Positions 1 to 22,168 of a DNA stretch of 64,000 nucleotides are shown here, one piece after another; position 1 is the first letter of the stretch; each line of letters begins with the position of its first letter. Made by a program: the position numbers and the translations under genes. The stretch is from NCBI GenBank assembly GCA_020726505.1, contig JAHLEZ010000005.1, forward strand, positions 1,426,001-1,490,000, written 5' to 3'. This stretch comes from Leptodontidium sp. MPI-SDFR-AT-0119. Lineage: Eukaryota; Ascomycota; Leotiomycetes; Helotiales; Leptodontidiaceae. The notes beneath the pieces are model-generated. The model saw only the letters and a list, made by a program, of their open reading frames with translations. It did no database searches and was not told where the DNA came from.

Positions 1-1914
1 TGCAGCGATCATGAAGCCAGAGACCTTAGATGCACTATCAAAAGTCGAGAACCCAGCGCCGATAGATCGAAAGAGAGCCGTCATACACATAGTAGTTGCA
101 AATATCAAGGCCCAAAACGTAAAGAAAGAGCCGGCATCTTGTTTTAGAGAAACCATAAAGTATAGCACAATTGAAAAGTGTGATACCTGTATGAGCAATA
201 CTGGAATATCTGCAGCGATTTGTGCGATACAGAAAGCGGCGGGATGATACAAGGCAAAAGCTTTATGTTTGGCTAGAACAGGACGGCCGGAAAAGGAATC
301 GGTAACTTCGGACATAGCGAGAAGACTGTTGAATAGAAGAGCCAGGAAGAGAGCACCAGACTTGATAAAGAGACCAGTCGAGTCGCCGGTGGCATTGTAA
401 AACAGAGAACCGGCGATAAGAGCTTGGGCGAGGGTTGAAGCTTGTTTAATAATGAATGTTGCTTTGTCTCCCCAGAGGATCTGGTATTGTCGAGTGACAC
501 ATGTCTTCACTTGGGTGACGAAGCTGACTGTGAGGGGTGACATTTTTGGCAGACTCTTATGCTTCTCGTATTGGACGCCTTCTTTGAAGTCTTCGGTTTC
601 CTGTTTCGCGATTTCGGTGGTTGGATAGCCATATTGTGCTTCCATCTGAAGAAAACGAGTAGTCAGTACTCATTCGTAAAATCTGGGCTGTTAATAGTAT
701 CTTACCTCAGCTTTGACACCACTCTTCTCATATTGCGCCCGGATATCTTCCGGAGTCCTAGGAAATCTTTTATCAAAGCCGTCTTTGATCATTCTTTCCG
801 TCGGAACTGTTACTCCAGTCAAATAGTCGGCAACGTTGGCTCCATCGCGGCAGACGAAGCCGAGTTCTTCCATAAATCGTCGGGCTTGTTTCATGGGACC
901 GTAGTAGATTTCTTTTCCTTCATCTAGGACTAAGACCTTGTCGAAGAGATTATAGATACCATTTCCAGCTTGGTACAATGTGACGATAGTTGAAAGACCA
1001 AAGATATCCGTCATCGCTCGAATGGCTTTTGTATATCCGAGAGCAGTACTCGCGTCTAGGCCTCGCGTACTGTTATCCCAACAAACAACGCTTCCTCTGG
1101 TAGCTATTGTCTCGACAATGCTTACACGCTTCCGTTCTCCACCGGAAACACCACGAACATACTCGTTTCCGACTTTGGTTTCATGAGTGTGAGAAATACC
1201 CATTGACTGAAGAAGAAAGTCTCGGCTTGTTTTCTGGTACTCGGCACCGTTCTGCATGTCGGAGGGCAGGTTGAATGGGATCTTCATTCGCGTTGCGAAG
1301 TCGATAGTCTGGCCGACGGTAAGGGTTGGGAAGAATAGCTCTTCTTCCGTATTCATCACGATCTGGCCTCGATATTGAGCAGCCTCCTTGTGATCTAGCG
1401 TTCCGAACTTGACGTCCCCATCGACTGCAGCGTATTCCTCTCTTCTGTTGGCCAATATCTTCAACAATGTCGTGCAGCCCGCTCCCGGTCGACCAAGAAC
1501 TAACAACATCTCCCCAGGTTTTACGCATCCGTGAGAATTGTCGATGATTGTTTTCAGTGGAGCTTCCTGTCTTGTTTCCTTGATGTTCCGCGCGATATTG
1601 AACTGCGATCCCACGTTCTCATTGATAGCCGCATCAGCACCTATGCCCTTGACCGTCAAATTCTTCCATGTAACACCCATTTTCCGTTGCTTCACGTGGT
1701 CCTTGTCGGCCTGATCCTGGAATGCCCTAATATCTGGCATCATATGCCAATTCGCCCTTTCCATCTCGCCATTGTCCTCCTCATCCTCGGATTCATAAAC
1801 GCGAGTAGGTCTCCGTTCCAGAAATGAAGAGGCATTAGAGAGCATCCGTAGGAGGGATTTTCCCTGGTCCCCGGGCACGATCGAGGCAAATACCTCTGAT
1901 TCCGTGGCAGCCAT
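1..1914 (-). CDS. PDR-type (ABCG) ABC transporter, N-terminal half, truncated by the window edge
   Basis: Full-size fungal PDR exporters carry two nucleotide-binding and two membrane domains and pump out toxins and metabolites at the plasma membrane. Translation starts at 1914. Exon 1 encodes the first nucleotide-binding domain: Walker [11 protein letters not shown] (residues about 141-150, with the Cys that replaces Lys in PDR proteins), signature VSGGERKRV (about 256-264) and the degenerate Walker [11 protein letters not shown] 60-nt intron (646-705, GTAAGA...TTCAG) leads in frame into exon 2. Exon 2 holds the first transmembrane helices ([20 protein letters not shown], the [14 protein letters not shown] loop) and runs off the window at base 1. 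The second half of the gene is not visible. It lies at the edge of the peptide cluster, so export or self-protection is an inference from position. The family call is secure; the substrate is unknown. Confidence 0.93.
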
Positions 1915-3223
1915 GCTGAATCCTCAACGCACGCAGTCAAAGTTCGTAAAGATGAAATTGATGAAGTGACTTGAATCGTCCGAGTGATTGATAAATGGAT
2001 GAAAATCTCGCAATATAAGATAAGAAACTGAATATCCCAACACAGCAATTGAAATCAAAGCAGCAGATCAACCAATCTTCAAGTAAATATAACACGGCCT
2101 CTTTGTGCGTTTCGGCCTCTTGTGCCTTCGGACCAATTATCAGGAGGTTCAAAGTGCGATGCCCTCCGATTACCTACATTACGACCCCGTCCTGGTAAAG
2201 CAACCAATAATGTAAGAAGGATCATTATGATCTTAGCCCCACTCGCACATTCGTCATACCGTTAAAGCTTTGTATCTGCTTACGTTTGTGCTGTTCTGTC
2301 AAAAATAGAAGAGAAGGGACCGGTATCTCACGGAGATCTGGTCATGAGCAGACTCCGACATGTTAATCCGTCTAATCAAGTCTTCCTAAGGGTCCAGGCC
2401 CTTGGGATCGGTGAGAGGGAAAGATGAGTCGAGATTGAGCATGAACTGCAGAGTTACTGCTTTTGGCCTTGGCATGTGTAGAGTTGTGGTGCCAAGCGTT
2501 TAGTAATTAACCCGGGGCCAATCGGAGTATTTTCATGCTCCAAGAGAAATAAGGCGCGACCGCAGAATAAGCTTCGAGGATCTTCCGGTAGATGCTCCGG
2601 AACTATAAGCATTCAAGACATTGGTATGGAGCATATGTCGTCACCCCGCAGCCAAGCTGGCTGGTGGCATCTCAATGGCGGTCAGCCTTGCGGAGCATCG
2701 CGAGGACAACTTCACAGGATTTAGGCCCATTTGCCAGTTTGTCAACTGCTCGGTCAGAACGCCGGCAGTGAGTTACTGGGACCAACCATTTGGTTTCCTG
2801 TAAAGCGCGGGCAAGACTTAGATCGGGCTGAACGGGGCAGACCACAATTTTCTGGTTGCTTTCGGGCCTTGCATGATTAGCAGCCATTATACGGTACGAT
2901 GATGGACGAGAGAATGGCCGACATGGCACAGATGTAAGGCCACTTCGGCGGTGCTACAGTTCCCGTCTGTCGCCGATGTCATCTTTAGCAAGCCTCAAGA
3001 AAAGTCGGTGATTGATAGCGGGCAGCCACCTGAGGATTATCAGACTACCATGGAAGATCGAACAAACAGGGTCCGCTTCAATATGTTCTAGAAAATGGGG
3101 AAATGGTCCGATTAACCACAAGATTATATATTTCTCTGCCTTCGCTCCCTTTGGCAATTGTGGAAAAGAAAGCATTCATCGAAATTTCTCAGTGCCCTAT
3201 AACTTGTTTCCCTGTCACCATCA
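1915..3223. promoter_or_regulatory. Divergent intergenic region between ABC transporter and bZIP gene
   Basis: About 1.3 kb without a convincing gene. It separates two genes that read away from each other, so it must hold both promoters. Short reading frames inside have no recognisable domain. Confidence 0.5.
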
Positions 3224-3940: not shown

Positions 3941-6217
3941 TTAGAAACTTTGCGGAATCGACCCCATACTTGAGAGATTTCCCCACAGCTCCCAGTCGGT
4001 AAAGTCCATCTCAGTGAACGAATTGATATCGAAATCTTGTTGGACTTCGGCGGTGAAATCCTCAGGTGTTATAGATAGAAACCTGAACCATCCTGAATGC
4101 AGTGCACCTTGCATCCGTTTCAAGATCTGGTCGATGTCAGTGCTTGTAAGGGGTCCCGAAAATCGCTCTGACAGCTTTTTGAACGAAGCTAAAATATGGA
4201 GTTAGATAGCTGCACCCGTCCGTTCCAGGTCGCGATTGCTTACTAATGAGGAAGCGCGGTAAATTCCAAATGGTTGCAAACTGCTCGAGAAAAAGGAGAA
4301 GCAGATCTTTGTGACTTTGGAGTCTTGCTTGAAGCTCTGGTTCAAGGTTTGCCACATCCTGAGAATGCAAATATATTATCATAAGGGCCTGCGAGATAAT
4401 GAAGCAGATGGCTGGATCGACTGATAGACACTGTTGTGCGTCCCATTCCCTGACAACTAACACCATATCGTCGCAATATTCGAGGGTTCTCCGCCAACAA
4501 TCCAACCACTCCGACTCGTTTTCTTGCAGATGTACATGGAATAATAGCAAGAAACGAGAAGCATGCAGGTGTAGGATAGAAATGAGCCGAGCGTGATGCT
4601 CAGTATTTGATTCATTAAGCAAGACATCACGGGCCAAATTGAAATAACGTGTAGGCAGAGACAGTCGAATGGCGGAGAGATCATTTTTGAGAGCGTCAAA
4701 GCGCGATCGTAAGCGTTCAGAAGGGTTTTGTCTCCAGAGCCGAGAAAGCCTTGCAGCTCCCCTAAGCATAGTTGTCGTTACTATGTGTATATTGAAGTTG
4801 AAATTGCCACCGCGAGAAATGATATCCCTGCTCGTCTTCCAGAGCAACTCTGTCTCAGCGGGTAGAAAGATTGGCTCCTCAGAGATGAATTGTCTGTCGG
4901 CTGTTTGGGAATTCTGTACTAGCCCCGTTTTGACACTGTCAAGTTCCACCACGAAAGGTGTTGCTGCTGTAATGTTGCAATATGAATCTAGGCAGTATAT
5001 GCACCACCAAAGACTCCTCCATTCCTCAAGTTCCTCATCGCTTATAAGATTTACATCGAATAGTGGACATTGATCTTGATTATCAAGCTGATGCAGCCCA
5101 CATTGATATGCCTTGCGCGTGAGCTGGCCAACTCTTAACCACGCATTTTGCCCCGGATGTTGGTGGAATTCATAGAATGCGAGCAAGCATGCTTGTTGAA
5201 GTTTCCCCAGGGATACTAAGCTATTTGAGATTTCTTCATCGGCGATTTTGGTCGACGTTACAAGAGATCGTAAACAATTCTCCAAGCTAGGGTTGGCCCA
5301 GACGCTTGTGAGCCCTTGAATCTTTGCAGAGATTCCAAGTATCGTAAGAAGTAGACTACGGCTAATGCACCCACGCTCGTATCGCTGTAGGAACGGGCGT
5401 CTCCGGAGCAAGGGTATTGATGGGTGAATGTATGTGAAGAAACTTTCGAGCCTGCTCGCACGCGAGTTGAGTTACAAATACTTATCGTACTTAAGAGCTT
5501 GGCGGATTATACATACAGTTGAAGTTCCTGGCAGGGTTGAAGTTGTGGATCTACTGGACTTTGATTCCTTTCCTGCCAAGTGCTTGCTGCGGCAGAATGG
5601 GCAGTATCAGATCGGGTCCCTCCTACAGTTGACAACGACGCCGTCGATTCGGTAAAGATGCGTTGCGGGAATAATTCTTCAAATAAAGTGAAAGGTTTTT
5701 GTGCTTCAGTTGAGGCAACACCGGCTGATAATTGAGGCTCCCGTCGTGACACTTCAGAGCGCACCTGATTAGCAAGCTTCCGACAAATAGAATGCCGCCG
5801 TCCACTGACCAGCAGTTGATTGAGAGGCAATGGCAGCCGATGTTTTTCGGCGGGAACCTTTGGCGGGCCCCGGTCTTCTTCTTGTAGAAGAGTAAACACA
5901 GGGCGTGTCTTCCACAACACAGCGAGAGCATGCTGGCTTTCGTAGATTGCCTGTATTCTTCTCTGTTAGAGATGAGAATGGGATCTCGTTCAGGTTACAC
6001 TCGCGTACACTTGACTTTCTTCCTAAGCCAAGTTAGCCAACCTATTATAATCTCGGGAGTCATTCCGGAAAACCAACAGCATGCATCTGTCACAGACTCG
6101 ACTGCTGGAAAGTTGGGGCTGTGGTTGTGGCATGATGGGCGGATTGATCGGGTGATTGGCCCACTGCGCGTCGCCAGGGACTGGCGGAGAACCCTCGGAA
6201 AAATTGAGGTTCGACAT
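3941..6217 (-). CDS. Zn2Cys6 fungal-type transcription factor (658 aa)
   Basis: Six exons join in frame: 6217-6078, 6022-6001, 5960-5810, 5724-5517, 5451-4244 and 4188-3941. Two introns interrupt the zinc cluster itself. The spliced cluster is C42-x2-C45-x6-C52-x12-C65-x2-C68-x6-C75 (CDRCMLKKVKC and CSRCVVEDTPC), a textbook binuclear cluster, which strongly supports this model. Residues FFTYIHPSIPLL and later WRSLWWCIYCLDSYC mark the fungal_trans regulatory domain. The C-terminus is acidic (DFDINSFTEMDFTDWELW), as in an activation domain. Intron 2 (5961-6000) is only 40 nt and intron 1 has an unusual GTTGGT donor, so those two boundaries deserve RNA checks. The gene converges on the bZIP gene with 138 bp between stops. 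It is a plausible second regulator of the peptide cluster. Confidence 0.85.
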
Positions 6218-7165
6218 CCGGAACGTTTGACCCCTAAACTCTGATGCAACATGCCCCGCGCAATGGGAACTTCGTGGTCGTGGTCAAAAAGGAATGGGGC
6301 GCTGTGTAGTCGTTGGGGAGTTGAGGAGTTGATCATCTTTGACGGTGTAGATGGTCCGTGCCACAAGCGGCGCGCGCCGGGCGGGGAAGGAATGAATGGT
6401 CGGGTTTCCAGAGATAGGACGGCAAGGACATCTCCTCGCGCCCAAACCGAATTTTTAGAAATAACTTAATAACGAAGCACCGCAGCGACCTGTAAATAAC
6501 GCCAATCGATCGGGCGTATCTTATTATATTATCTGATCGTAGGATACGTGCCCTTTCGAATTATTAGTCGCGATGCACGCTTAAACATAATAATTAACGC
6601 GATTTTTAGAATTACCTCATAGAAACTATACGTTTACTATTATAATAAACAACACTAGAATCACTTAAAAATAATATAAAAAAGCTTGAATCGAAGTTGA
6701 TTCCTTTTACTACTACTACGGACTATTTGCAGGTGTTCCTAATATACCTACATAAAGACATCGGTCTCAAGGGCAATAAAGATAACCTCAACCTGCGCGC
6801 CCCGTCTATTGAAGAGGGCGCTGCGGACATATTTAAACGCGTAGGCTCTTGATCAAGGTGAGCCTCCACATACCTGCAGAGAGCATTGTTGTACTTGTCT
6901 TGGTCTAAATCCGTAAATTCGAGGGAATAACAAAGCGAACCAAACGAAACACAAGATTTCCGTGAAATAATGCTCCGTTAACCCGCAGTAAACTCCTCGT
7001 TTCCAAGTGCTGTAGCATTGCCTCGAGAACTGAACTTTTTTCAAAGAAGATGCATTAAGTCCGAGTAAAAATGGAAATCAAGCAAATTTAAAGACAAAGG
7101 TTTTAAGTATGGAAAATGCGATTCTTGGAATGAATATGAGTTCAAGACCTGGAAGTTGATTTTAT
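6218..7165. other. Gene-free stretch with AT-rich block (about 6450-6800)
   Basis: No supportable gene. About 6450-6800 is markedly AT-rich with runs such as TTATTATATTATC and AATAATATAAAAAAG, unlike the GC-balanced flanks. This resembles a relic of repeat-induced point mutation, but no source element is recognisable by eye. Confidence 0.45.
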
Positions 7166-9437
7166 TCAAGCGAACAAAAAGGTGTGCAGGCAAGCAACGC
7201 ACCCTACGCAAGCCGAAAATAGCGTCAAGAGCATCACAAAACTTCTCAAATCACCCAGAACCATCCTCTGTCTCTCAACAGTGACACCAACTACCGTCTT
7301 ACTCAACTCCTTTCCCCTCCATCCCTCCCTCCTCGCACACGGCCTTACCGGGTTCGGCACACATCGCCCCTTATCATCCTCCACAACAAAGTAGTCCTGC
7401 ACCAATGTCTTTCCCTCTAGATATAGCATCCGCAGCCTGTCACTACAGAGGCCCAGATTCCACGTGTAGCACGCGCCCTCAAGCGGAAACGGCGGGGACT
7501 CGCCCGAGTGCTCCCAATGTGTGTACATGTGTGGGGTGTTATACCCGGAGGCTGGAACGGTTCCGGAAGCGATGTCGAGCCCGGTTATGGCACGTTGGAA
7601 GATTGTTTGTGACAGTTGGGGTTGTTGCAGCCCTACGTTGTGGCTGGCGGAGTACACCCGGATGAAAGATAGGTTACCTGCCTGCCGAACTTGGGCGCCC
7701 ACGGGGTACCCTGGGAGTGAGATGTCGGCAATGCCAGCGGAGGAGAAGACGTGGGAATGACTAAAGGGGATGGCGTGCGAGACGGCTTCGCCGCCGAGCC
7801 CTGTGTGAGAATAGTTAGCATCCTATTACTGATGGTGAGGGTCTATACGTTATTTCTTACAGTTGCAGGCAAAGTCTCGATCTCCGTACACCATGGTCAC
7901 GGGCACTCCAGCGTCCATTATGCTTGCGAGAGCCTCGAGAGATCCCCCTTTGACGTTATCACCTGTCAAGGAGAACGCCTGGGCAACCACAGGTGCGTTC
8001 GCGGAAAAGTTCACGGGAACACCGAGGGCGTCTTGGACGTGTTTCTGGTTCAGGTACCCAAGATATGTCTCAGAGAGGGGATTAGCAAGGAGATTTTCTG
8101 GGTACGCGATATCGAAATAGCTTCTACCCGTGGCGACGCTGGCGACATGCTTGCCGCAGTACTGGTTGGCGTCACGACAAACGTCGTCTACATTGCTTGC
8201 GACGCTTAGGTTGCGATCAGCAGCTGTAGAAGCATTTCGGCAGGCTTGGATCTTTGCGAGGCATCCATCGCTTTTCTTGAAGTTATGTATAGCTGTCAGG
8301 TAACCCGCCTGGTCCGTGAGGGGGGCGCTGTAGTTGTTCTTGAGCGCCATTTCAGGGTAGTAAGGAAGTTGGGTGGGACCATCGATACATGCGTTGGTCA
8401 TGCCCAAAATTCCGATGGTCAGTGGGATAAACTGCTCTCGGTCCAGCCTGCCTTGGCTGTGACGTGTATTTTGAGCCAATGTGTATTGGATGAGTTTTGG
8501 GACGAAATGGCCGCCATACGAAGACGTCCAGAAATTTATCTAGATGTTGTGAGAAAGCGCTTCCTTAAAAAGTTTGCTCGTTATGATCGTACCCTGTTAT
8601 TCGAAGACTCTCTTTTGCCGAACTTCTGCATCCACACTTGGAGGAAGAACCATGTGCTGCGAGCCACCACTTGCGTGCTGTTCGCGGTGTTGCGCGGATT
8701 ATGACTTGAAAAGAATCCTCGTCGCGATCCAGACGCGAGTCCCGCTGGGGCCTCTCTTGAATTCCTGTCCAACACCAGATTGTCATCGGCATCAAGGACG
8801 CCGGGTTCAGCGAAATCGTAGCTGAAGCCTTGAATCAGGTCAATGCCAACTCTCTGCAAAGTGGAAGAGATTGCTTACCTGTTTGTACGGGCTGGTCAAT
8901 ATAAAGGATGTCTGAATGTTCATTCCAAGAGAATCGATTGTTAGAGGTGCTGTTACTGTCCGAATTGACTCTGCACGGTCCGTTTTCACGGAACAAGGAC
9001 ATTACTGCAAAGGAGATGAGTTACGATCTTAAAGCCACAAACATGTCGCAAGTCTTACAACTGGAAGCACCTGGCCCGCCCATAACTGCGGATGGTAAGC
9101 GCACAATCCATGTCTCTTCGTTGATACACTCACAATATACTGTCAGTGGTGCATCAGTCCTCTTCTTCCGGTTCTGGAAGTACCAGAAGAAGATGTTGAC
9201 GGGGTAATCCTGAGTTGAATCGATGCCATACTCCTTCAGAACTCCAGACTGTAGCCGAATGTATCCAGAATGGCTCTCTACACCCGGCGTTTCCTCACAC
9301 AGTGAGGCCGGCTTTGAGTCGACACGGATGTCGTCTCGAAGTCGCAGGGAGAGTGTCAGGACAGGACTCAGGTTGAATAGAATCCAAAGGAAACCAGAAA
9401 CTAGTCCATACACCGAAGAGCAAGGCATGACAGTCAT
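7166..9437 (-). CDS. Serine carboxypeptidase-like protein (peptidase S10, 668 aa) with C-terminal membrane segment
   Basis: Six exons (9437-9134, 9085-9059, 9004-8879, 8828-8593, 8539-7861, 7800-7166) keep frame at every junction. A hydrophobic N-terminus (about residues 9-33) acts as signal or anchor. S10 landmarks in order are SGYIRL, oxyanion segment MGGPGASS (103-110), GFSYD, the nucleophile segment TSSYGGHF (Ser238), GDRDFACN (Asp453) and SASHNVGLQQP (His511). So the catalytic triad is intact. Two substrate-carboxylate residues usual in this family are changed: the Asn of NGGPG is Met103, and the Glu of GESYGG is Ser237. The tail (FVMLLTLFSACVGCVACLHTF) looks like a transmembrane helix, a layout like the Golgi carboxypeptidase Kex1. 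It may trim the residues left after Kex2 cleavage of the neighbouring precursor; that role is inferred. Confidence 0.9.
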
Positions 9438-10087
9438 GGTGATGCTATTGCCCGTCAATGAAAGATGAACAATATACACCCAAAATGCGCATATGCTTCG
9501 GGGGGCCGCCGCAGCTCAGCCAGCACGGCGTAGTGACGAGCAGCTAGCGTCCACCCTGCTTTTCGTCCTTCAAGGATGTCCAGCGGGCGGTGACCCTCCC
9601 TCGTCCCTCCTTGATACGAAGTACAGTAGCTGGTAAGCGCGTGTGCGTTAGCGTCTTGGCGAGAGTCAAGCCTTAATTAATGCTTGTAATGTGCATATGA
9701 TGTGTACTTGCACACTTTCTGTTTCTTTCTTATTCACATGTCTGGTCCCAACGGTGCATGTGGGTGGGTGTGGGTGCTGCCGGCCTGGTCTTACTGTACT
9801 GTAATTCGGCAATCAGCCCACCAGGATTGAAATCCCCACACGACAAGCCAACGCAACGCCTTACCCACCTAGGTAGGTATCTATTAACTCATCAGGCTCC
9901 AATGTTTTTGCAGTTGGCCTGGCCCTTTTACTGCCAAAGGGTCGTCGACGAGCTGCAACTCGCCGCTTCCACTTTGATTGCGTGAGTGAGTGAGCCTTGA
10001 GTGTTGCTCGTTAGGTCTTCCTTCACAGTTCGTGCTGGTACACAGCAATTTGTACACCCACCCACCTACCTACCTGAGCAGCCCAAA
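9438..10087. promoter_or_regulatory. Bidirectional promoter region, carboxypeptidase / UstYa-like A
   Basis: A 650-bp gene-free interval between two divergent genes. No defined operator could be recognised. A pyrimidine-rich stretch (TTTCTGTTTCTTTCTTATTC) lies near 9718. Confidence 0.5.
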
Positions 10088-10981
10088 ATGGACAGCTATC
10101 GCCCATCCGAGTCTGAATCGCGACAAGAAGCATCCGAGAAACTGTTGTCCGGCTCCAGCTCTCAGAATGATTTCAGCGACCATGTCGAACCAAGACGCGC
10201 ACGAAGAAGGCAGTGGTGTTCGCGATGGTTCATTGCACTTCCCGGATTCCTTGCCTTCCTTACCATTTACTCCCTGGCCTTGGTATCTATTGTGAAGGAC
10301 TCGGTCTGTCTGACCGAGTCTCATTCAGCCGGGCAACTCATCTACAGTGCGTGAGACTGAGTACAACTACGTGTGTAAGGGCACTTGCTGATTGAGACCA
10401 GCACCTGTAAGGGATGCCATCGTCAAAGAAAAGAAGACCATCGATGTCTCGGTCCTGCACGGAAATCCCTTGAAAGGACCACCCAGCCCGGAACTCGACG
10501 AGGCATGGAGCCGACTTCTGATGAATGCCAACGTACGTGTATCCGCAGAGGATCTCGAGAAGGCAGGAGTCGAGTCCATTCCGCTGAATGATGGCTCTGG
10601 CAAGTATTACGCGATCCTGGATGTGTACCATCAATTACACTGCCTTAAGTACATTCGCCATTACATGTACAAGGTGAGAGTACACCCGCCGACTCGTTTC
10701 GCTTCTGTAGCTAACATGCCAAATAGGATATTTACGACGACGTTCAGTCATGGACTCCAACTCACGTGGATCACTGCATTGATAGTATTCGGCAGAACCT
10801 GATGTGCAACGCGGACACGGCGATGATGGGGTTTCGGTGGGTGAATGATAGTCTCGAGCCTAAGCCAAACTTTCGTGGCCAGCATGAGTGTGTGAATTGG
10901 GAGAGTATCGAAGAATGGGCCTCTGAGCGGTCATTCAACCCAGATGACCAGGCGAATTTGCGCCACCCGAGCGCTGCATAG
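10088..10981 (+). CDS. UstYa-like oxidase A (DUF3328, 261 aa)
   Basis: UstYa-family proteins catalyse oxidative cyclisation in dikaritin-type peptide biosynthesis and other oxidative tailoring in fungi. Three exons (10088-10346, 10402-10673, 10727-10981) join in frame. A short polar N-terminus is followed by one transmembrane helix (WFIALPGFLAFLTIYSLALVSIV). The lumenal domain has the family segment GPPSPELDEAW, then the two hallmark motifs HQLHC (163-167) and HVDHC (190-194), then CIDSIRQNLMCNAD. The family metal or cofactor site is attributed to these HxxHC motifs. It is divergent from the carboxypeptidase gene and converges on UstYa-like B with 60 bp between stops. Which ring, if any, it forms cannot be told from sequence. 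Confidence 0.93.
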
Positions 10982-11041
10982 CAATGTATACGTTAGACAA
11001 TGGTGAAGAAACAATGCATGGTATTTGTGGCATATATTCAT

Positions 11042-11843
11042 CTATTCTGCTTCCTCGTCCTCAGGCGCGACCACGGGTCGGTGTTGACTCGCCCACTCAA
11101 ATACATCGCGGTAATCTTTACAAACATGATAGTGCCCATCTATGAACTCCTTGGGCCCGCTCATGGGCACTAGTGTCGTGTCAATATTGCACATAATCGT
11201 CTGCCGGATCTGATCGATACAATGCACAACATGCGCCCATGGCTCGCTCTGGTTCTTCTGCGCTTGAGATTGAAAGACTGAGGTTCGAATCTTGGCCAAA
11301 CAGTGCAAGTTATGATACCCGGCCATGAAAAAGAGGCCATTACCAGGCGTGTCGGGATCGGGCCATGTTTCTGAAAGGCCATGCGCTTCACGGTCGGATT
11401 TGCTAACCGATACCAAGCCATTGCCAGCTTCATATTGCATGTCAGTCAACACACTCGGTAGAACTACAGCGATCTGTAACGTACAAGGAAAGAGATCTCT
11501 CCAAAGAGAGTCTGCTTGCGGCTTCTTCGCGCCAATATCGCCATAGGTCGTGTCTTGAAACACTGCGGTATGAATAGTCTTGTGAGGCGGATCTGGACAA
11601 ATATCTTAGCAAGTCGGGCGTATGTCTAGGAGGGCCAGCCTTCGTACACTCATCGATACCCACGGGTCTTGGTGGTATAGACCATAGCGTCAATATCCAG
11701 CCCACATTACTGATCAGCAAGAGCACGAAGACGCCCGTCTGCAGGAGAAAAGGCACATTGTGTTGACGACCTTGAGGAGCCGGCGGCCATTCGGATTCAC
11801 TACTTTTCTCCGAGTCTGACTCTGGCAGTTGGCTGTACTTCAT
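11042..11843 (-). CDS. UstYa-like oxidase B (DUF3328, 225 aa)
   Basis: Three exons (11843-11660, 11592-11485, 11427-11042) are joined through GTATCG and GTACGT donors and restore the family segment WRDLFPSGNGLVSVS. One transmembrane helix lies near the N-terminus (VPFLLQTGVFVLLLISNVGW). The hallmark motifs are HNLHC (136-140) and HVVHC (163-167), followed by CIDQIRQTIMCNIDTT and the usual C-terminal HVCKDYRDVFEWA. It is the shortest of the six apart from its UstYa core, with a variant AKKPQADSLW in place of PPSxExDxAW. It faces away from the precursor gene across a 1.17-kb promoter interval that holds a tandem duplication, so the two could share control elements. Confidence 0.92.
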
Positions 11844-12244
11844 TTCGTCGAGGAGGGGGCTTTCAGAGCTTTCCTAAACAAAACCTTCAAATTGACTTGC
11901 TGAACTTGTGATATGGGATTGGAAGTAATCCAGGAGGCAAGGCAGAAGGACATAAAACAGCGGGCTTCATTAACCCCCAAACTTGACAGGAGTGTTTTTC
12001 AACAATTACTTCGGGGCCTCCAGTGACGAGGCTACTGTTACAACAATGGGCATCAGCATAACGACAAACAAGCTCTAATCCAATCTAGGAGAACGATCGG
12101 CGCGATTGCATGGTTACAGGGAAATCGGTACTAAGTCTGCATCGTATTGAAATCGGACTGGTGTTGCTTACTACCTGTGTCACTTTCTGAGAACGAAATT
12201 TTCAGACAATAACCCTAAGGCGGCCGCATGAGCTTGGCCTGCGA

Positions 12245-12632
12245 CTCTATCCTCGCGCCTGCATATTACCACTGAGACTGGTGTGACAAATAGAGAGGGC
12301 TAGGGGACGGCACAAACTTGCAGAGAAGCCAGAAGCATGGTAGGTCTTTGCACAACATAGCAAGGTAGGAAACGAACCACCATGATGGACATGGAATGGT
12401 GTTCCATGCCGGAAAAGGCAGGTGATGATATTCTAGCATAAGCTCTATCCTCGCGCCTGCATATTCCTACCAAGAGCGGTGTGAGAAATAAAGAAGGCTA
12501 GGGGACGGTACAAAATTGCAGAGAAGCCCGAACTATAGTAGGCCTTTGCACAACATGGCAAGGTAAGAAACGAACAACCATAAATGGACATGGAATGGTG
12601 TTCTATGCCGGAAAAGGCAGGTGATGATGTTT
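12245..12632. repeat. Imperfect tandem duplication, two units with 198-bp period
   Basis: Copy 1 starts at 12245 and copy 2 at 12443, both with CTCTATCCTCGCGCCTGCAT, and both end near AGGTGATGAT (12420 and 12618). The copies differ by scattered substitutions and small indels, so the duplication is not recent. It lies 385-770 bp upstream of the precursor start codon. Confidence 0.9.
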
Positions 12633-12910
12633 TAGCGGGAGCATATTGCTGACTGCATATAACACATATCTCAGTATCCTTGGACCGAGGATCTCAAGGT
12701 TAAACCAGCTCGTGTTGTCGTAGAGCTGTACAAACAGATGCCGGATCGTCCAATACGCGAATAGAGTAAGTGAGGTGGGAAAAAGGAATCCTTGTTCGCC
12801 AGCGAGCAGTGCCCCATGTCAAATCCGGCCGTTGGTCGAAAGCGACTCATTGTGCTCAATTATGGGAGATTAACTCTCTTTTCGTCTATTGCAACATCAG
12901 TTCGAACTCA

Positions 12911-12920
12911 TCTATATATT
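12911..12920 (+). promoter_or_regulatory. TATA-like box of the precursor gene
   Basis: TCTATATATT lies about 100 bp upstream of the start codon at 13017. It is followed by a C-rich, CT-rich leader ending in CATCAACAATGG, typical of a strongly expressed fungal gene. No transcript start is known. Confidence 0.5.
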
Positions 12921-13016
12921 GGGCCTGAAGCTCGGGGTCATCAGCCGCCCAACCATCTCTAACCCACTTCAATAACCACCATCACTCCTTGACCTCCAAA
13001 GAATCTCTCATCAACA

Positions 13017-13622
13017 ATGGCTTTCAAGAAGTCTGTTTTGCTGGCTCTCGCCATCGCCTGCGCCAACGTCCTCGCTGCCCCTTTGGCCCTTCCGAAAGCT
13101 GCGACCGATGATACACTCGAGACTCTCTCAGAAGCAAGCGCTGCCTACGTCCATGGCTCTTACGGCTACGACAAGCGTGCTGAGGAGACTACCGATGACA
13201 CACTCGAGACTCTCTCGGAAGCAAGCGCCGCCTACGTCCACGGCTCCTACGGCTACGACAAGCGTGCTGAGGAGACTACCGATGATACACTCGAAACTCT
13301 CTCAGAAGCAAGCGCTGCCTACGTCCATGGCTCTTACGGCTACGACAAGCGTGCTGAGGAGACTACTGATGAGACACTCGAGAGTCTCCCAAGTGCAACC
13401 TCTGTTTACGTCCACGGCTCTTACGGCTACGACAAGCGTGCTGAGGAGACTACCGATGACACACTCGAGACTCTCTCAGAAGCAAGCGCCGCCTACGTCC
13501 ATGGCTCTTACGGCTACGACAAGCGTGCTGAGGAGAATACCGATGACACACTCGAGACTCTCTCAGAAGCAAGCGCTGCCTACGTCCATGGTTCTTACGG
13601 CTACGACAAGCGTGACGAATAG
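13017..13622 (+). CDS. Secreted RiPP precursor with six YVHGSYGY core repeats (201 aa)
   Basis: A single exon. Residues 1 to about 20 form a signal peptide (MAFKKSVLLALAIACANVLA). After a short linker come six 29-residue units of the form AEETTDDTLETLSEAS-AA-YVHGSYGY-D-KR. Core copies lie at residues 44-51, 73-80, 102-109, 131-138, 160-167 and 189-196. Each is followed by Asp and a KR dibasic site, the signal for Kex2-type cleavage; the protein ends with DE after the last KR. Unit 4 has a changed spacer (SLPSATSV) but an unchanged YVHGSYGYDKR, which marks the selected segment. The acidic spacer plus Tyr-containing core plus KR pattern is that of ustiloxin- and phomopsin-type precursors, whose cores are shorter. 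Six UstYa-like genes surround it. The product structure is unknown. Fungal mating-pheromone precursors share the KR-repeat layout but not the UstYa context. Confidence 0.93.
   Translation: MAFKKSVLLALAIACANVLAAPLALPKAATDDTLETLSEASAAYVHGSYGYDKRAEETTDDTLETLSEASAAYVHGSYGYDKRAEETTDDTLETLSEASAAYVHGSYGYDKRAEETTDETLESLPSATSVYVHGSYGYDKRAEETTDDTLETLSEASAAYVHGSYGYDKRAEENTDDTLETLSEASAAYVHGSYGYDKRDE
13104..13613 (+). repeat. Coding tandem repeat, 6 units of 87 bp (precursor cores)
   Basis: The period is exactly 87 bp: the TAC codon opening each core falls at 13146, 13233, 13320, 13407, 13494 and 13581. Copies differ mostly at third codon positions (for example CATGGC/CACGGC and TCTTAC/TCCTAC). The exception is unit 4, which carries several amino-acid changes in the spacer only. 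Confidence 0.97.
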
Positions 13623-14190
13623 TTCTGCTAGACGTTGTGCGTGTTATGGTAGTTCTCACTGCGACGGCGAGTGTGAATACAGATTTGGCTCTATGCTCGG
13701 GAGTGGGCAGATGGACTCGTTCGGAACAACAAATTACGAAGGTGGGACGTTGGAACGGACGTTGGTATGACTGAGTGGACTATCAAACTGTTAGGGCTTA
13801 GTTATCATGGGTCCGTAGAACCTGAAACCCTATGTAACTAGAATCAACAGTCCTTACAGAATGCGCTGAATCTGCCTAATTGCCTACTGTGCTTATTATA
13901 AGTAACCACGATGACTTCGTCCATAAAACAAATACTCTGTGATCAGACCTTCTCAGTACGTAAAGTAAGAGGTGGTGGTTGACCGACCACGGGGCCTGTG
14001 ATCTATGGACCAAGGATAAAGTTTAGTCGATAGCAATTGGCATTAGCCGTTCTGTCAAACATACTTTTTAGCGCGCCTGCTAACAGCCACCAAAGCTTGG
14101 TTGCGAAGGTATGCAGGGCAGGGCAGCGGCACGGATCGCTAGCGGGTGCGTCGTGGCCACCGGATGTGGCGGGGCGGGTTGAATGCAAGT

Positions 14191-14742
14191 GAATTCCGAG
14201 TGATGATACACGGACGACCCCCTGTTACTATGAGGACGACCCCCCCCCCCTTGTTTCCTAAGGCGGTGACCTAAAATGTCAGCGGTGAAAAGTGACTTCT
14301 AGCGCCACCTAATTAATCGCGAAATCGCGTATCTTTCTTGACGCGTACATTGTAACACATCGTGATTTGAATAATCATCCTCACAACACACACATATCCA
14401 CGAGAATTCTTCCCTTACCTTTACAGCCATGGATTCTTCCGTTTTGCCTTTGTCATTACCTCCCACTAGTTTTTATGAGTCTTTCGATGCACTTTTGGTA
14501 GCGTTCCGGACGATGATTTTGTTGTAATCCTAGCAACTCAGTATTAGTCTCTCTTTTCCAGTTTTAGCATCAGCACGTAAAATGCATCTTAAAGTACTAT
14601 TACATTGATTTTGGCGGGTGCAACCACTCTAATTTACTGCCGCAGTACTTACGGGGACACCGTGTTTTCTGCCATAAAAACAGGGGGGGGGGGTCGTCCT
14701 CATAGTAACAGGGGGTCGTCCGTGTATCATCACTCTGAATTC
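14191..14742. mobile_element. Inverted-repeat element flanked by GAATTC, with poly-C/poly-G inner arms
   Basis: The arms at about 14197-14250 and 14682-14736 are near-perfect inverted copies: GAGTGATGATACACGGACG, then CCCCCTGTTACTATGAGGAC, then a C run against a G run. The arms are flanked on both sides by GAATTC (14191-14196 and 14737-14742), a possible 6-bp target duplication. The about 430-bp interior has no transposase. It is best read as a non-autonomous DNA element of unknown superfamily. Confidence 0.75.
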
Positions 14743-14850
14743 CTAGGAAGCTTATTGTGCGCTAAGATATGTGGAGCGTCAAACCGCTAGCAGCTGCGTG
14801 CCTTTTGCGGCGTAGGTTATGAGGATGTGGTGGGGCAGGTTTAATAATCA

Positions 14851-15057
14851 TGGGATCAGAGACTACCACCTTCCGGTAAGCTGCGCCTTAGGTGGGGCAC
14901 ACCAAAAAGCAAAATCTTAAAAATACGTATAAAATAAGGCCGTGCGTCCCCTCCGAGATCTTGAAATAAGCGATCTTGCTTTTTAGTATATTCTTGCTTT
15001 TTGGTGTGCCCCACCCGAAGGCGTAGCTTTGCCGGAAGGTAGTGGTCTCTGATCCCA
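14851..15057. mobile_element. Short inverted-repeat element (about 207 bp, long arms)
   Basis: The left arm (TGGGATCAGAGACTACCACC, CTTCCGG, AGGTGGGGCACACCAAAAAG) is matched by its reverse complement at the right (GGTGTGCCCCACCCGAAGGC, then CTCTGATCCCA). The arms are about 70 bp, with a short AT-rich loop. It would fold into a long hairpin and resembles a foldback-type MITE. Target duplications are not clear. Confidence 0.7.
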
Positions 15058-15078
15058 CAATTGCTACATGTACTTTCG

Positions 15079-15447
15079 TACGAAAGGGGGTTGACAATGG
15101 GTCTCGTCCCACCGTTATACCTAGCAAGGTTGTTTTTCTAATCAATAGTTTGAAATTCTAGAATTTTCTCTACGGAGGTACAGCTGCTATGTTTTACCCC
15201 CTGTTTTTGCTGGGGACCCCGGCTGCTGTGTACTTTACTTGATCGGGTTGTAAACAAACAAGAGATTTGGTGCGCATAAGCCACGGCGCCGAGTAGTTAC
15301 TACTCTAATAAGGAAAGCTGCACAGCAGCCGGGTTCCCCAGCAAAAACAGGGGGTAAAACATAACAGCTGTACCTCCGTATAGATTTCCCTCAGTAATTA
15401 GGCAAAAGACAAGGCTAGACGAGACCCACTGTCAACCCCCTTCTGTA
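15079..15447. mobile_element. MITE family 1, copy 1 (TA-flanked), interrupted by a family-2 element
   Basis: Terminal inverted repeats TACGAAAGGGGGTTGACA at the left and TGTCAACCCCCTTCTGTA at the right, each extending into GGGTCTCGT/ACGAGACCC. The ends carry TA, as for mariner-type target sites. Total length is 369 bp, but it contains a 210-bp family-2 element. Subtracting that leaves about 159 bp, matching the other two copies (161 and 167 bp). Confidence 0.85.
15171..15380. mobile_element. MITE family 2, copy 1, nested in family-1 copy
   Basis: Ends TACGGAGGTACAGCTGCTAT and (inverted) ATAACAGCTGTACCTCCGTA, extended by matching arms that include TTTTACCCCCTGTTTTTGCT. It carries TA at both ends and no coding capacity. 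The nesting gives the order: family 1 inserted first. Confidence 0.85.
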
Positions 15448-15477
15448 CTAAAGTATATACTTCGAAGTAGTACTGAA

Positions 15478-15660
15478 GTCTCAGGAAGCTTATCGTGGGC
15501 TTACACGAACCAGCTTCGTTACGGTATGCAGACCGGGGAAGCGGCACCCTCGCTAGCAAGTGCGCCTTCTTCGGCGTGGCCGCGTAGCTACGCAGGATGT
15601 GGCGGGGTGATTTGCATACTCGTGAATTCTCAGGAAGCTTTATCGTGGGCTTTATGGACC
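15478..15660. repeat. Degenerate dispersed repeat, third of three copies
   Basis: Segments near 14090-14196, 14743-14840 and 15478-15660 share a diverged motif series: AGGAAGCTTATCGTGGGCTT, GTATGCAG, GCAGCGGCAC or similar, TCGCTAGC, GGATGTGGCGGGG, then GTGAATTC. They look like remnants of one larger repeat that was broken up by the other insertions. Confidence 0.5.
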
Positions 15661-15883
15661 CACCTCCTTGTAGTCAGAGCGGTTGGATTATTGTCCGTCT
15701 GAGGATGTTGTACTACCGTCAGCACCTTCACCGGTTCTTGGTCCAGCACGAGTGCTCGAGTTGTGCTCGAGTTGTCCCTCAATGTTCGGACGTGGCGGAG
15801 CCGAACCTACAATTCCTGGCATCTTTGGACTTTCTCATTTCATTCCACTTGTTACACATCTCAGTTCGTCCTCCACTGGCACA

Positions 15884-16955
15884 ATGTTTTACGCTTTCCG
15901 TGGCTATAACAAGCTCAACACTGATGAAGAGAAGGAGAGCTCAATACGGAGCGCGACAGAAAGCCCTTCACCTTGCGTGTACTGCGTAGGCCATGCCCAA
16001 ACTCGACCTCGGGCTTTGTTCGTGCAATATCTCGGATGGTTCTTGCTACTTGCACTGTCTGCTTTTGTAGTCTTTTCAAACGGAGACTTGAGATCTTCGA
16101 ACATCAAGCGGCTGATAACCCAGACGAGTTCATATTGTGAGTGCCAGTCTAGCTTACATTCATTATCTTCCACTGATAGCTCTGCAGCTCCTATATTGGA
16201 AGATTTGGATCCAGGGCTTCAAGAATTCCGCTTCAACGGTTCCATTCGCTGGCCGTCACCATATCGAGGTCCTCCAAGCAGCGAAGTCGATGCTGCGTGG
16301 AATCGCATTTCAATTGTCCGGCCGCTGGACCTCGATATTTCGAAGGAGGACTTCCATACCATTGGCGTCAACCCAGACACAGCAGCAACAAACGCTCCAG
16401 AGCACGGTGGCGGGTACTTCATGGTGCCGGAGTTCACACATCAGCTTCACTGCGTGGTGAGCATTGGATCGAAACCAAGAGGCGATTAGCCAATATGCTG
16501 ACTGCCGAACAGAACCTGCTTCGTAAAGCGTCATATTTCAAGTATGACTATTATAAAATCCATGACCCTGACTTCGGCGACAAGGAAGAAACATTCAAGG
16601 TTCATCTCGGTAAGCTTTGGTCATGCTGCGCATGATTGTATGGTACAGTTTTGCTAATAGCTTCGACAGATCACTGCGTCGAAATGCTACGCCAATTTGT
16701 GATGTGCCATGCAGATGTCACCATCGTGACTGCTCACGTGAGTTCTTAAAAGAGCAGTTAAAGTGGAACTGGACGCTAACGGCTTCACAGTGGATTGAAC
16801 AACGCAGCAGACCGTGGCCTGATTTCAATACCAAGCATGTGTGTAGGGACTTTGAAAAGGTGCTTGATTGGACAAATAGACACTCAAAGCCCGTAGGGAC
16901 TCCGTTGATCCCCATGAAGCCGGAGGGTGCCATGGCAATGAGTTCGCCGCCATGA
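15884..16955 (+). CDS. UstYa-like oxidase C (DUF3328, 283 aa)
   Basis: Five exons (15884-16136, 16188-16456, 16513-16609, 16670-16737, 16791-16955), all junctions in frame. The start chosen is MFYAFRGYNKLNTD; upstream methionines in the same frame have no family similarity. One transmembrane helix (FVQYLGWFLLLALSAFVVF) precedes the UstYa core: SSYSPILEDL, SPYRGPPSSEVDAAW, then HQLHC (169-173), NLLRK, and HLDHC (205-209) with CVEMLRQFVMCHADVT, and a C-terminal HVCRDFEKVLDW. It has more introns than its five paralogues and is the copy closest in layout to the canonical UstYa domain. Confidence 0.92.
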
Positions 16956-18625: not shown

Positions 18626-19360
18626 ATGTGTGCTCTCGTCCTCAAGCCCACCAACTTCACTCTCTTTTTCACGCTTCTTCTTTTTATCATCTCACTCTTC
18701 GTCCTTTTCGGGGCCAGCTTTCCAAGCAGCCAAACGTACGGATCCTGGCTGTCACCATCGCCATGCTTCTGCGAACAACCCGGTGCGAGTGGCAACGATG
18801 AGTTGACCAGAACACCCCCCAGTGCCTATCTCCAAGCTTTCCGCATGAGACCCGAGCTCGAAGACATGACAGAAGTCGGAGATGCAATATGGTCAACGAT
18901 ATCCTCGACTAAGCAAGGCGGCTTTCTCTGGGTACGACACAACGAGACGTACAAGACCGGACACGGCGTGAGCATGTTTCATGCCTTACACTGTCTTTCT
19001 ATGATTCGGGACGCTATCAAAGGGTCAAAGAGCGGGGCGGTCGCTCACTCACATGGCTCCAAAAGAGACATTCATGTGGGAAAGAGTGAGGATGAGATGC
19101 ATGTAGGGCACTGTCTCAGCTATGTTGCGCAGTCGTTGCTGTGCTCGGCTGATGGCACGCTGGAGCGTCCGAAAACTTACACAGATGATGCGGGCAACGT
19201 GCTGAGGGACGATGTGGACGGAGAAGACGTTAAACATCAGTGTAGGAGTGCGGGTTACCTCAGAGAGAAGATTGAGCAGACCGAGCAGCGTTCGCTGGAC
19301 TCAATACCAAGGCTGAAAGAGGGGGCAACGATGTGGGATCTCTTTGACGAGCTGAGATAA
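18626..19360 (+). CDS. UstYa-like oxidase D, intronless (DUF3328, 244 aa)
   Basis: A single exon, unlike its five paralogues. An N-terminal transmembrane helix (FTLFFTLLLFIISLFVLFG) is followed by a shortened lumenal domain. The usual PPSxExDxAW segment is reduced to MTEVGDAIWSTI. Hallmark motifs are HALHC (119-123) and HVGHC (159-163), then LSYVAQSLLCSADGTLE. A linker between the two motifs carries many His, Lys and Ser residues. The start at 18626 was chosen because it directly precedes the membrane segment. Divergence and lack of introns suggest a separate subfamily, so its reaction may differ from that of the other five. Confidence 0.88.
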   Translation: MCALVLKPTNFTLFFTLLLFIISLFVLFGASFPSSQTYGSWLSPSPCFCEQPGASGNDELTRTPPSAYLQAFRMRPELEDMTEVGDAIWSTISSTKQGGFLWVRHNETYKTGHGVSMFHALHCLSMIRDAIKGSKSGAVAHSHGSKRDIHVGKSEDEMHVGHCLSYVAQSLLCSADGTLERPKTYTDDAGNVLRDDVDGEDVKHQCRSAGYLREKIEQTEQRSLDSIPRLKEGATMWDLFDELR

Positions 19361-19507
19361 ATGGGTGTTGACAGTAAATAATGGTGAAACCGATACATTT
19401 GCAAAGCCACAGAAAGCTGGTTCTGGGCCAGTGCCAACATGCATTTGTAAATGTACATATAGTCATTCAAATACCACAATAAATTGTTAAGGTCTTAGTC
19501 TTTACCC

Positions 19508-20479
19508 TCAGTATACTCCATCACAATCTACCCCTTCCTCGCATGGCACATGAACCAGCTCAAGCCCCTCCTTTGGTCTCCTAATATATTGCATCAAATG
19601 TTCCACAGAGTTCTCTCTTGCCCATCCCACCACATTATCCCAGTTCTGGCATGCATGCACCGTCCTGAAGTTCGGCTTTGGCATTCGCTCTCCTTTGACC
19701 CAATTGTACGTCAAAATGCTGAGGTCTCCGCTACACATCAACGACTGGCGAATCTGCTCAATACAGTGCTCGCGATGCGCCTGAACCTCCTCCTCCGTGT
19801 GGCCATGGAAGCCTTGATAGTCGGGATACCGATCTGGGTAGAAACTTTGGCGAATAAGATTCTGGCACATAGGCGTGAGTTTGCTGACGGGCAACAGGTA
19901 TTGCAGAGGGAATGAGATTTGGAGGAGCTCGCTTACCAGACAGTGCAGTTTGTGCACAACGTCAAAAGTCGCCACGTACTTGTCCTCAGGCTCGTAGGGT
20001 ACGCGGACTCCTGTCTCCAGAGAGGGATTGACTTGTCGGAAGAGCTTTGCAGAGATGCTAAATGCGCCCATGTCGTCCTCGACGAGGCTTTTCCATGCTT
20101 GGTCTGTTTCGTTGCTGGGAGCTCCGGACCAGGCTGAGGAGAGTGTGAACGTCCGTTGCTGTCTCTGTAAAAGCTTTTCATTAGGCGCTGGACTGAGGTC
20201 AGCCTCCGAGACTTCTAATCTGAGGCGGACATAAAGTGACCTACTTGGAGGGAGCGTATAGTCGGTAGCATCCAAGGCGTTTCTGGTCAACGCCCATGAC
20301 TTGAACATGGTGATCATGAAGATATTCAGAAGCAAGATGGCCACATTGCACGCGAGGAAACACCGCGGCCACAATTGTGGCAGCAAACGAGCGTTCTTCG
20401 AGGCTGATAACTCTTCACCACCGTCGAGGTTGCTCAAGGGCTGGTATGAAGCATTTGTCTCCTTGTTCACGGCCGCCAT
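19508..20479 (-). CDS. UstYa-like oxidase E (DUF3328, 279 aa)
   Basis: Modelled with three exons (20479-20245, 20187-19937, 19861-19508). Both introns are multiples of three (57 and 75 nt), so an unspliced frame also stays open. I place the second intron with confidence, because removal restores HKLHCLNLIRQ; the first rests on its GTAGGT donor and on intron position in paralogues. One transmembrane helix (CFLACNVAILLLNIFMITMF). Core features are WSGAPSNETDQAW, HKLHC (157-161), HREHC (191-195), CIEQIRQSLMCSGDLS and HACQNWDNVVGWA. It ends 147 bp from UstYa-like D, tail to tail. Confidence 0.9.
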   Translation of the reverse strand: MAAVNKETNASYQPLSNLDGGEELSASKNARLLPQLWPRCFLACNVAILLLNIFMITMFKSWALTRNALDATDYTLPPSRSLYVRLRLEVSEADLSPAPNEKLLQRQQRTFTLSSAWSGAPSNETDQAWKSLVEDDMGAFSISAKLFRQVNPSLETGVRVPYEPEDKYVATFDVVHKLHCLVSELLQISFPLQYLLPVSKLTPMCQNLIRQSFYPDRYPDYQGFHGHTEEEVQAHREHCIEQIRQSLMCSGDLSILTYNWVKGERMPKPNFRTVHACQNWDNVVGWARENSVEHLMQYIRRPKEGLELVHVPCEEGVDCDGVY

Positions 20480-21033: not shown

Positions 21034-22168
21034 ATGGCGTCGAAACCACATGGCTTCTCTCAGCCAGAAACACTCGAGGAAAAGTATCTCGATCATGATG
21101 CCGCTTCTGAAGACCACGACAGCTCTTCCGCCCTCCTATCATCAATCGAAGAAGACGGACGCAGTCTCGAACAAAGTCATCAACAGAGACGTTTTGTTTT
21201 CATTTTGATCGGCCAGGCGGCGTTCTTCATATTTTCTCTTTCCCTGCTAGTGTATTCGTTGTATTTGCAGAAGCAAATGCCTCAAAATTGCACGCGAAAG
21301 ATCTCGTCGCCCTGTGAGTGCATCACCACCTAGTTCAAAAGCCAAACCTGTTCGCAATAATGTCTGACCATCTAGCTCCTGCACTCGAAGCGTTTACCGA
21401 CGATGATTACGAATGGGTCCGCTGGAACACTACGTTGAACACCTTTGGAGAGTTTACCGGCAACTACACGGAGGAGAAAGCCCAAGCATGGTTGGATATC
21501 ACCGCAAGTAAGATTGGTCGAACTCCAGCTCAAGTAGTTCGGGTCACTGCTTTCACAGTGCATAGAAGTACTCATCGTTTCTTTCCCACTAATCTGGCGT
21601 TAGCTCCTGTCATCACTGTGTCCGAGGCCGATATGATCAGCGCTGGTGCTTCCTTGGACTCCGTACGAGTGCCTGAATCTGCCGGAGGCGGCTACCTGGC
21701 TCAGCTCGAGGGGTTCCACGACCTGCATTGCCTTCGCGTACTGTGGTATGATCACCACTCTGAGGAGATCCCAGAGACCAAGAAGTCCAAGCTAGAGAAT
21801 TCACGACACTATGAAGCGCATTACGAGCACTGCATCGACCTTCTACGGCAGAGTCTGATGTGTAATTTTGAGTGAGTTCGCCTTCCTCCAATCATTGCTC
21901 CGAGAAAGATATTGACTGACACACTTACAGTACAAGCTTTGCGACTTTCAATTGGCTCGTGGACATCGACGAACCATTCCCTTATTTTGCGAACCCCAAG
22001 AAATGCCGCAAGTTGGACAAGTTACTGGACTGGACACATGAGCACAAGTTTCATAAGCCAGAGGGCTTTGTTTGGGAGGCTCCTGATGATGCTCACTTAG
22101 TCAGAGTGGTCGACCGTGTTGCGCAATGGGATGAACCTCGAGTGGATAAGGATGGGAACGAGCTGTGA
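21034..22168 (+). CDS. UstYa-like oxidase F (DUF3328, 305 aa)
   Basis: Four exons (21034-21313, 21376-21507, 21604-21871, 21931-22168), in frame throughout. One transmembrane helix (FVFILIGQAAFFIFSLSLLVYSLYL). Splicing restores SPSPALEAF, the start of the family core. Hallmarks are HDLHC (176-180) and HYEHC (210-214), then CIDLLRQSLMCNFDTSF and a C-terminal CRKLDKLLDWTHEH. The core substrate segment is variant: RWNTTLNTFGEFTGNYTEEKAQAW in place of the Pro-rich form. It is the longest of the six. It is divergent from UstYa-like E and lies on the side nearest the GNAT and methyltransferase genes. Confidence 0.92.

Follow-up and report, generated by a model that had tools for sequence, protein, structure and literature searches.

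A Kex2-type precursor with six YVHGSYGYD cores among six UstYa genes: a probable dikaritin-type RiPP cluster in Leptodontidium sp. MPI-SDFR-AT-0119

A gene for a repeat protein that carries the peptide YVHGSYGYD in each of its six units lies in the midst of six UstYa (DUF3328, PF11807) genes in Leptodontidium sp. MPI-SDFR-AT-0119. We estimate a probability of roughly 85% that the locus is a dikaritin-type RiPP cluster, in which UstYa homologues would oxidatively cross-link the core of a Kex2-cut precursor. Dikaritins are RiPPs made from Kex2-processed repeat proteins and cyclised by UstYa homologues (PMC10512285), and judged at the sequence level the locus agrees with this published definition: the repeats are separated by KR, the start is signal-like (by eye and by comparison with relatives), UstYa genes are neighbours, and the core contains Tyr. 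An earlier note on this DNA had read the gene as a RiPP precursor; that reading is strengthened by the six neighbouring UstYa genes, which the note did not contain, while its suggestions about cyclisation, ring number and chemistry stay conditional. The window, that is the whole stretch of 64,000 nucleotides analysed (C45:1426001–1490000), is part of a contig of 3,452,068 bp (C45) in a genome of 77 Mb and 69 contigs. To judge from the strain name, the fungus was probably isolated from plant roots. The features are collected in Table 1.

Table 1. Features of the locus, in positions of the window
Feature	Position	Strand	Basis
ABC transporter exon	691..1923	-	PF00005 and PF14510
Fungal transcription factor gene	4137..6283	-	PF04082, E 3.8e-13 on 4140-5471; Zn2Cys6 part by eye
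Serine carboxypeptidase S10 gene	7850..9515	-	PF00450, E 7.7e-15 on 7853-8539; extent by eye
UstYa oxidase Y1, ~264 aa, 2 introns, HQLHC + HVDHC	10088..10981	+	PF11807 exons, model, motifs; splice sites uncertain
UstYa oxidase Y2, ~253 aa, 1 intron, HNLHC + HVVHC	11042..11843	-	PF11807, model; intron position uncertain
Precursor gene (Kex2-processed repeat protein, 201 aa, six cores)	13017..13622	+	Sequence; relatives P0002, P0003, P0004
Signal peptide MAFKKSVLLALAIACANVLAA	13017..13079	+	Boundary by eye; P0003 and P0004 start alike
Core copy 1, YVHGSYGYD-KR	13146..13178	+	Unit comparison
Core copy 2, YVHGSYGYD-KR	13233..13265	+	Unit comparison
Core copy 3, YVHGSYGYD-KR	13320..13352	+	Unit comparison
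Core copy 4, YVHGSYGYD-KR; unit with most divergent spacer	13407..13439	+	Unit comparison
Core copy 5, YVHGSYGYD-KR	13494..13526	+	Unit comparison
Core copy 6, YVHGSYGYD-KR	13581..13613	+	Unit comparison
UstYa oxidase Y3, ~300 aa, 3 introns, HQLHC + HLDHC	15884..16955	+	PF11807, model; several splice variants fit
UstYa oxidase Y4, 244 aa, no intron, HALHC + HVGHC	18626..19360	+	PF11807, model, motifs
UstYa oxidase Y5, ~298 aa, HKLHC + HREHC	19508..20479	-	PF11807, E 6.5e-45; one in-frame intron inferred from P0005, P0007, P0008
UstYa oxidase Y6, ~337 aa, 2 introns, HDLHC + HYEHC	21034..22168	+	PF11807, model, motifs

The precursor ORF is intron-free, runs from ATG to TAG and consists of a signal-peptide-like start followed by six 87-bp units. 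YVHGSYGYDKR occurs in 6/6 units; in the sixth, DE and the stop codon come next. This architecture, as described earlier, was confirmed by ORF translation, by comparison of the units and by Tandem Repeats Finder, which places an array at 13104–13614 (period 87, 5.9 copies, 90% matches) with a score of 868, against 50–120 for the three other arrays in the window. The recomputed masses, 944.4028 Da for YVHGSYGY and 1059.4298 Da for YVHGSYGYD, also agree with the previous values. An overlapping ORF in the +2 frame (13108–13770) is most readily understood as a side effect of units whose length is a multiple of three. A search of the genome gave a single match for the precursor and no second copy. 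Pfam matches on the precursor (Polbeta, Arg_decarb_HB and Barstar) were rejected; their scores seem to accumulate over the repeats, since for each of them no single stretch lies above threshold. The protein homology search did not return the window precursor in its full form, so the gene may be missing from annotations.

Within the six units, the 11 core codons (YVHGSYGYDKR) show no non-synonymous change and three synonymous variable positions (H, G and S), whereas 8 of the 16 spacer codons compared (positions 1–14, 26 and 27) vary in amino acid. Fisher's test gives p = 0.008 for this difference, a value that is too optimistic because the changes are not independent, seven of the eight stemming from unit 4 alone. 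With unit 4 set aside, amino-acid differences are confined to spacer position 26 and to position 29, which was left out together with position 28 because the stop of unit 6 falls there; position 29 is also variable (T/N). The presence of the same nonapeptide amid different spacers in other fungi is stronger evidence against chance than the codon test.

Such fungi were found by two homology searches. The first, with the precursor, yielded one protein, P0002 (E 6.7e-6), which has three YVHGSYGYD copies in different spacers; the length limits of this search left out two-repeat precursors. The second, with the P0002 repeats, yielded P0003 of Xylariaceae sp. FL1272 (E 0.010) and P0004 of Gnomoniopsis sp. 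IMI 355080 (E 0.026). These E-values are weak, and candidates were chosen by exact core words, so that identical cores are favoured and precursors with altered cores would be missed. P0003 and P0004 are nevertheless taken as orthologues because their full sequences share with P0001 the start MAFK.S, ALP, TDDTL and SAAYVHGSYGYDK. YVHGSYGYD, with Tyr 1, 6 and 8, is present in 13/13 units of the four proteins (6, 3, 2 and 2). It is preceded by A in 12 units and V in one, and followed by K in 10 and D in 3. KR comes directly after the core in 9/13 units; the other four have DKVKR or DKKKR (three units of P0002) and KL (the last unit of P0003). The invariance indicates that the ninth residue, Asp, belongs to the conserved block. 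As to the choice left earlier between a cyclic octapeptide and a nonapeptide with Asp, the conserved block is thus the nonapeptide, while cyclisation retains the standing of a proposal. The idea that the core is peculiar to this genome does not hold, since P0002, P0003 and P0004 carry it unchanged. FL1272 and Gnomoniopsis are Sordariomycetes, and Leptodontidium (Helotiales) and Rutstroemia are Leotiomycetes; an identical core across two fungal classes suggests that the product is strongly constrained and is not a variant of one lineage.

The six UstYa genes, Y1–Y6, occupy 12.1 kb (10088–22168) around the precursor and account for the nine window matches among the 70 exon-level PF11807 matches listed genome-wide, which are scattered over many loci. 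Each gene model contains both HxxHC motifs, in exons that match PF11807 or directly adjoin such exons, although the models were selected for openness and motif content and their splice sites are approximate. The HxxHC pair is a suspected component of the active site (PMC12048977). Hydrophobic N-terminal segments were seen by eye. A degenerate second motif in Y3, HHRDC, was rejected, as it lies in a different reading frame from the motif given by the spliced models. Pairwise identity is only 21–30%, and a recent tandem expansion is therefore not indicated. Six genes so divergent suggest several distinct modifications. Hydroxylation and chlorination, however, are also carried out by DUF3328 proteins, which are found in polyketide and non-ribosomal pathways as well (PMC12048977); the six genes here therefore do not necessarily stand for six cross-links.

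Conservation of the oxidases was followed through Y5. Ten homologues at E ≤ 1e-8 were returned among 717 candidates: four from Botrytis/Botryotinia, two from Rutstroemia, one from Xylariaceae, the host's own model, and two with uninformative names. The Xylariaceae protein, P0007 of FL1272 (GGR57DRAFT_507886), is 70% identical to Y5. It and P0003 (GGR57DRAFT_507883) are each on a contig of 304,690 bp, and from this shared contig size, rather than from reading the DNA, precursor and Y5-type oxidase appear to be linked in FL1272. The cluster thus appears to be conserved between Leotiomycetes and Sordariomycetes, with linkage supported in one other species only, as no Gnomoniopsis protein was among the ten homologues returned. 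For Botrytis and Rutstroemia no precursor was returned although Y5 homologues are present; short repeat genes may lack annotation. Y5 matched no solved structure at E ≤ 1, and an AlphaFold2 model of its homologue P0005 (10 rows) has a mean pLDDT of 45.1, one N-terminal helix alone being confident. The published Leptodontidium sp. MPI-SDFR-AT-0119 model P0010 (181 aa) matches Y5 exactly at residues 2–107 and 109–181 and omits the stretch bearing both HxxHC motifs, which is present and open in the DNA. P0009, P0013 and P0014 (B. cinerea, B. fragariae and B. convoluta) have one HxxHC motif each. Annotation error or decay may explain the motif loss in these four models.

On the upstream side the cluster is flanked by genes with Pfam matches for an S10 carboxypeptidase, a fungal transcription factor and an ABC transporter, and on the downstream side by those for a GNAT acetyltransferase (23.0 kb), a flavoprotein, a TPP enzyme and a sugar transporter. 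Their membership is inferred from position only. The carboxypeptidase is a possible C-terminal trimmer of Kex2 products and the transcription factor a possible cluster regulator; the ABC transporter might serve export or self-protection, its position arguing more weakly for membership. One piece of the carboxypeptidase gene (8584–8874) has no Pfam match in its frame, and the same is true of a piece of the transcription factor gene (5772–6032). In the eight promoter regions, no CGG-triplet pair occurs in five or more regions, and the best shared 8-mer is found in 3/8, with random windows giving 3–5 and hence no enrichment. Several repeats lie between the genes. A MITE-like element of 552 bp with 66-bp inverted ends (95% complementary) is located at 14191–14742, between the precursor and Y3, and has 42 matching pieces genome-wide, itself included. 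Upstream of the precursor, a block of about 190 bp with no evident gene is directly duplicated (12245–12383/12443–12581; 12385–12437/12584–12636), and short related repeats, some inverted, are found between cluster genes (15068–15458, 17233–17401 and 20563–20591). Farther away, the minus strand encodes a HET-domain (heterokaryon incompatibility) protein at 47248–49464. A cytochrome P450 gene (61031–62371) lies about 39 kb beyond Y6, with no evidence of cluster membership.

The comparison with described systems turns on the tyrosinase. Genome-wide, PF00264 gives 44 matches at E ≤ 0.001, and the window contains none of them; the nearest on the same contig (C45:1559781) is about 112 kb from Y6. 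The S41 peptidase PF03572 has three genome matches at this threshold, none in the window or on the contig. The earlier note had likened the design to ustiloxin, phomopsin and asperipin precursors. This is borne out for the precursor itself, but the closest architecture is that of asperipin-2a rather than ustiloxin or phomopsin, because several core Tyr residues are combined with no tyrosinase match in the window. A ustiloxin-like reading was rejected for want of a window tyrosinase; moreover, the core is YVHGSYGYD, not the YxI of the ustiloxin/phomopsin subgroup, and the S41 peptidase of phomopsin-like clusters has no match on the contig. Of the three marks of the asperipin subgroup, a multi-Tyr core, UstYa without tyrosinase and a reductase, the first two are seen in the window.

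Asperipin-2a of Aspergillus flavus (apr) shares with this locus a Kex2-repeat precursor, a multi-Tyr core ending in GY (FYYTGY) and a UstYa homologue, and in the account of the apr cluster in PMC6514808 no tyrosinase is among its four genes. AprY, the sole UstY homologue of apr, is essential for asperipin-2a, in which both rings are tyrosine ethers, and sequential oxidative macrocyclisation has been proposed for it (PMC6514808). The apr cluster differs in having a single UstYa gene, as against six here, and a hexapeptide core; it includes a reductase, aprR. As far as the description in PMC10512285 goes, no transcription factor lies around the apr precursor gene, and asperipin-2a repeats are typically 8 aa (PMC7329392), compared with 29 aa here. 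The phomopsin cluster (phom) is similar in its repeat precursor and several DUF3328 genes, five in number (PMC7329392), whereas its core is YVIP and such clusters carry a tyrosinase, a methyltransferase and S41 peptidases (PMC6514808). The ustiloxin B cluster (ust) has likewise a signal peptide, KR-flanked repeats, UstYa homologues and a transcription factor (ustR), but its core is YAIG in 16 repeats, it has two UstYa genes and it requires the tyrosinase UstQ; the first ustiloxin intermediate requires UstQ, UstYa and UstYb (PMC6514808). UstY-type genes are also found in the Parmeliaceae clans R1 and R2, with GNAT genes near the UstY gene in R2 as here, yet no conserved repeat precursor was found in either clan (PMC12048977).

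Besides the window, 11 UstYa loci of the genome (C23:3588, C68:2322, C31:376–396, C26:545, C8:1172, C69:2733, C34:2794, C45:1554, C4:1636, C3:1450 and C68:297 kb) were screened for open frames of at least 50 aa with a 6-residue word at least three times and at least two dibasic sites; the screen would miss intron-split or two-repeat precursors, and about 20 further UstYa loci lie outside it. One of the 11 has a clear repeat precursor. There, at C4:1641424–1642247, two reading frames show LGNYY(E)-type repeats separated by dibasic sites. UstYa matches (C4:1636490–1640489) and a tyrosinase (C4:1635175) are nearby, and the locus is probably another dikaritin-type cluster. A repeat at locus L018, found on both strands, looks by eye unlike a precursor, as it lacks a signal-like start. 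Rightward of the cluster, about 106–112 kb from Y6, UstYa matches accompany the tyrosinase mentioned above (C45:1545000–1564800), and no repeat precursor was detected there by the screen.

For the YVHGSYGYD locus, a route by analogy with ustiloxin, phomopsin and asperipin-2a can be proposed. The putative signal peptide would send the precursor into the secretory pathway, where Kex2 cleavage after each KR would give repeat peptides ending in YVHGSYGYD-KR. A Kex1/S10-type carboxypeptidase, possibly that encoded at 7.85–9.5 kb, would remove KR and perhaps Asp, and the oxidases Y1–Y6 would cross-link the tyrosine side chains of the core into one or more rings. The released product would be YVHGSYGY or YVHGSYGYD minus 2.016 Da per link. 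For 0–3 links, the computed [M+H]+ values are 945.41, 943.39, 941.38 and 939.36 for the octapeptide, and 1060.44, 1058.42, 1056.41 and 1054.39 for the nonapeptide.

In another reading, the precursor and some UstYa genes form the RiPP cluster while others, such as Y4 and Y6, serve a second pathway or have decayed. We regard this as a tentative though reasonable option, in keeping with the low identity among Y1–Y6, the spread of the 70 UstYa matches over many genome loci and the inverted-repeat elements between the precursor and Y4, and with conservation having been examined for Y5 only. On the other hand, an open gene model containing both motifs can be built for each of the six, albeit by a choice of models made to this end, and the phomopsin cluster has five DUF3328 genes (PMC7329392). 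Alternatively, the cluster could be silent or its product no longer made, as might be thought from P0010 and from the transposon-type repeats within the cluster. This is hardly probable, given that the precursor and the UstYa genes are readable as open, that the core changes are synonymous only, and that the stretch absent from P0010 is present and open in the DNA.

It is also conceivable that the repeats release a linear secreted signal or pheromone-like peptide, and that the UstYa genes serve another product. DUF3328 genes accompany 22% of fungal genes for Kex2-processed repeat proteins (KEPs), about 78% of KEPs (6120/7878) thus having no such neighbour, and mating factors are linear (PMC7329392); an identical core across classes could suit a signal as well. 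However, among 443 KEPs regarded as putative mating factors or pheromones (227 + 216), just 3 are near DUF3328 genes (PMC7329392), the other 440 having none nearby, while here six UstYa genes surround the precursor and a Y5 homologue is apparently linked in FL1272. Three Tyr residues in the core also speak against a linear product; Tyr is found in 65.6% of the repeat sequences of DUF3328-accompanied KEPs versus 38.2% otherwise (PMC7329392). In fungal alpha-pheromone precursors, repeated XA/XP dipeptides separate the Kex2 site from the peptide; here, by eye, there is no run of them after KR, but EASAA precedes 5/6 cores. A linear peptide is quite unlikely overall, and a dikaritin-type RiPP cluster is the preferred reading.

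The earlier note did not recognise the core among described dikaritins, and this was upheld by a full-text search of 5.39 million papers, without supplements, that gave no match for YVHGSYGY or HGSYGY. The cores of the epichloecyclins and victorin differ from YVHGSYGY. Epichloecyclins (GigA) and victorin are counted among the dikaritins, a class with only five reported members at the close of 2022 (PMC10512285). SYGY is absent from the main texts of two KEP surveys (PMC7329392 and PMC6339444), one of which distinguished 838 types of such precursors in fungi (PMC7329392). In two types represented in Botrytis and Rutstroemia, members have DUF3328 neighbours: 57/64 in G-3 and 16/35 in G-5 (PMC7329392). 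The supplements of these surveys, which lie outside the search, may list the family, so what is probably undescribed is the product family of YVHGSYGYD; the gene family need not be unlisted.

A bolder proposal, speculative and rather doubtful as a whole, is that YVHGSYGYD founds a conserved dikaritin subfamily of Leotiomycetes and Sordariomycetes. The six different UstYa proteins would join Tyr1, Tyr6 and Tyr8 through several links, perhaps with a Tyr–His link among them, and the resulting peptide, compact, polycyclic and possibly metal-binding, would act as a conserved signal or interaction molecule and not as a lineage-specific toxin. With six UstYa genes, three Tyr residues in each core and no tyrosinase match in the window, the locus offers a good system for assigning one reaction to each UstYa gene, and the occurrence of an unchanged core in distant fungi suggests that its function is constrained.
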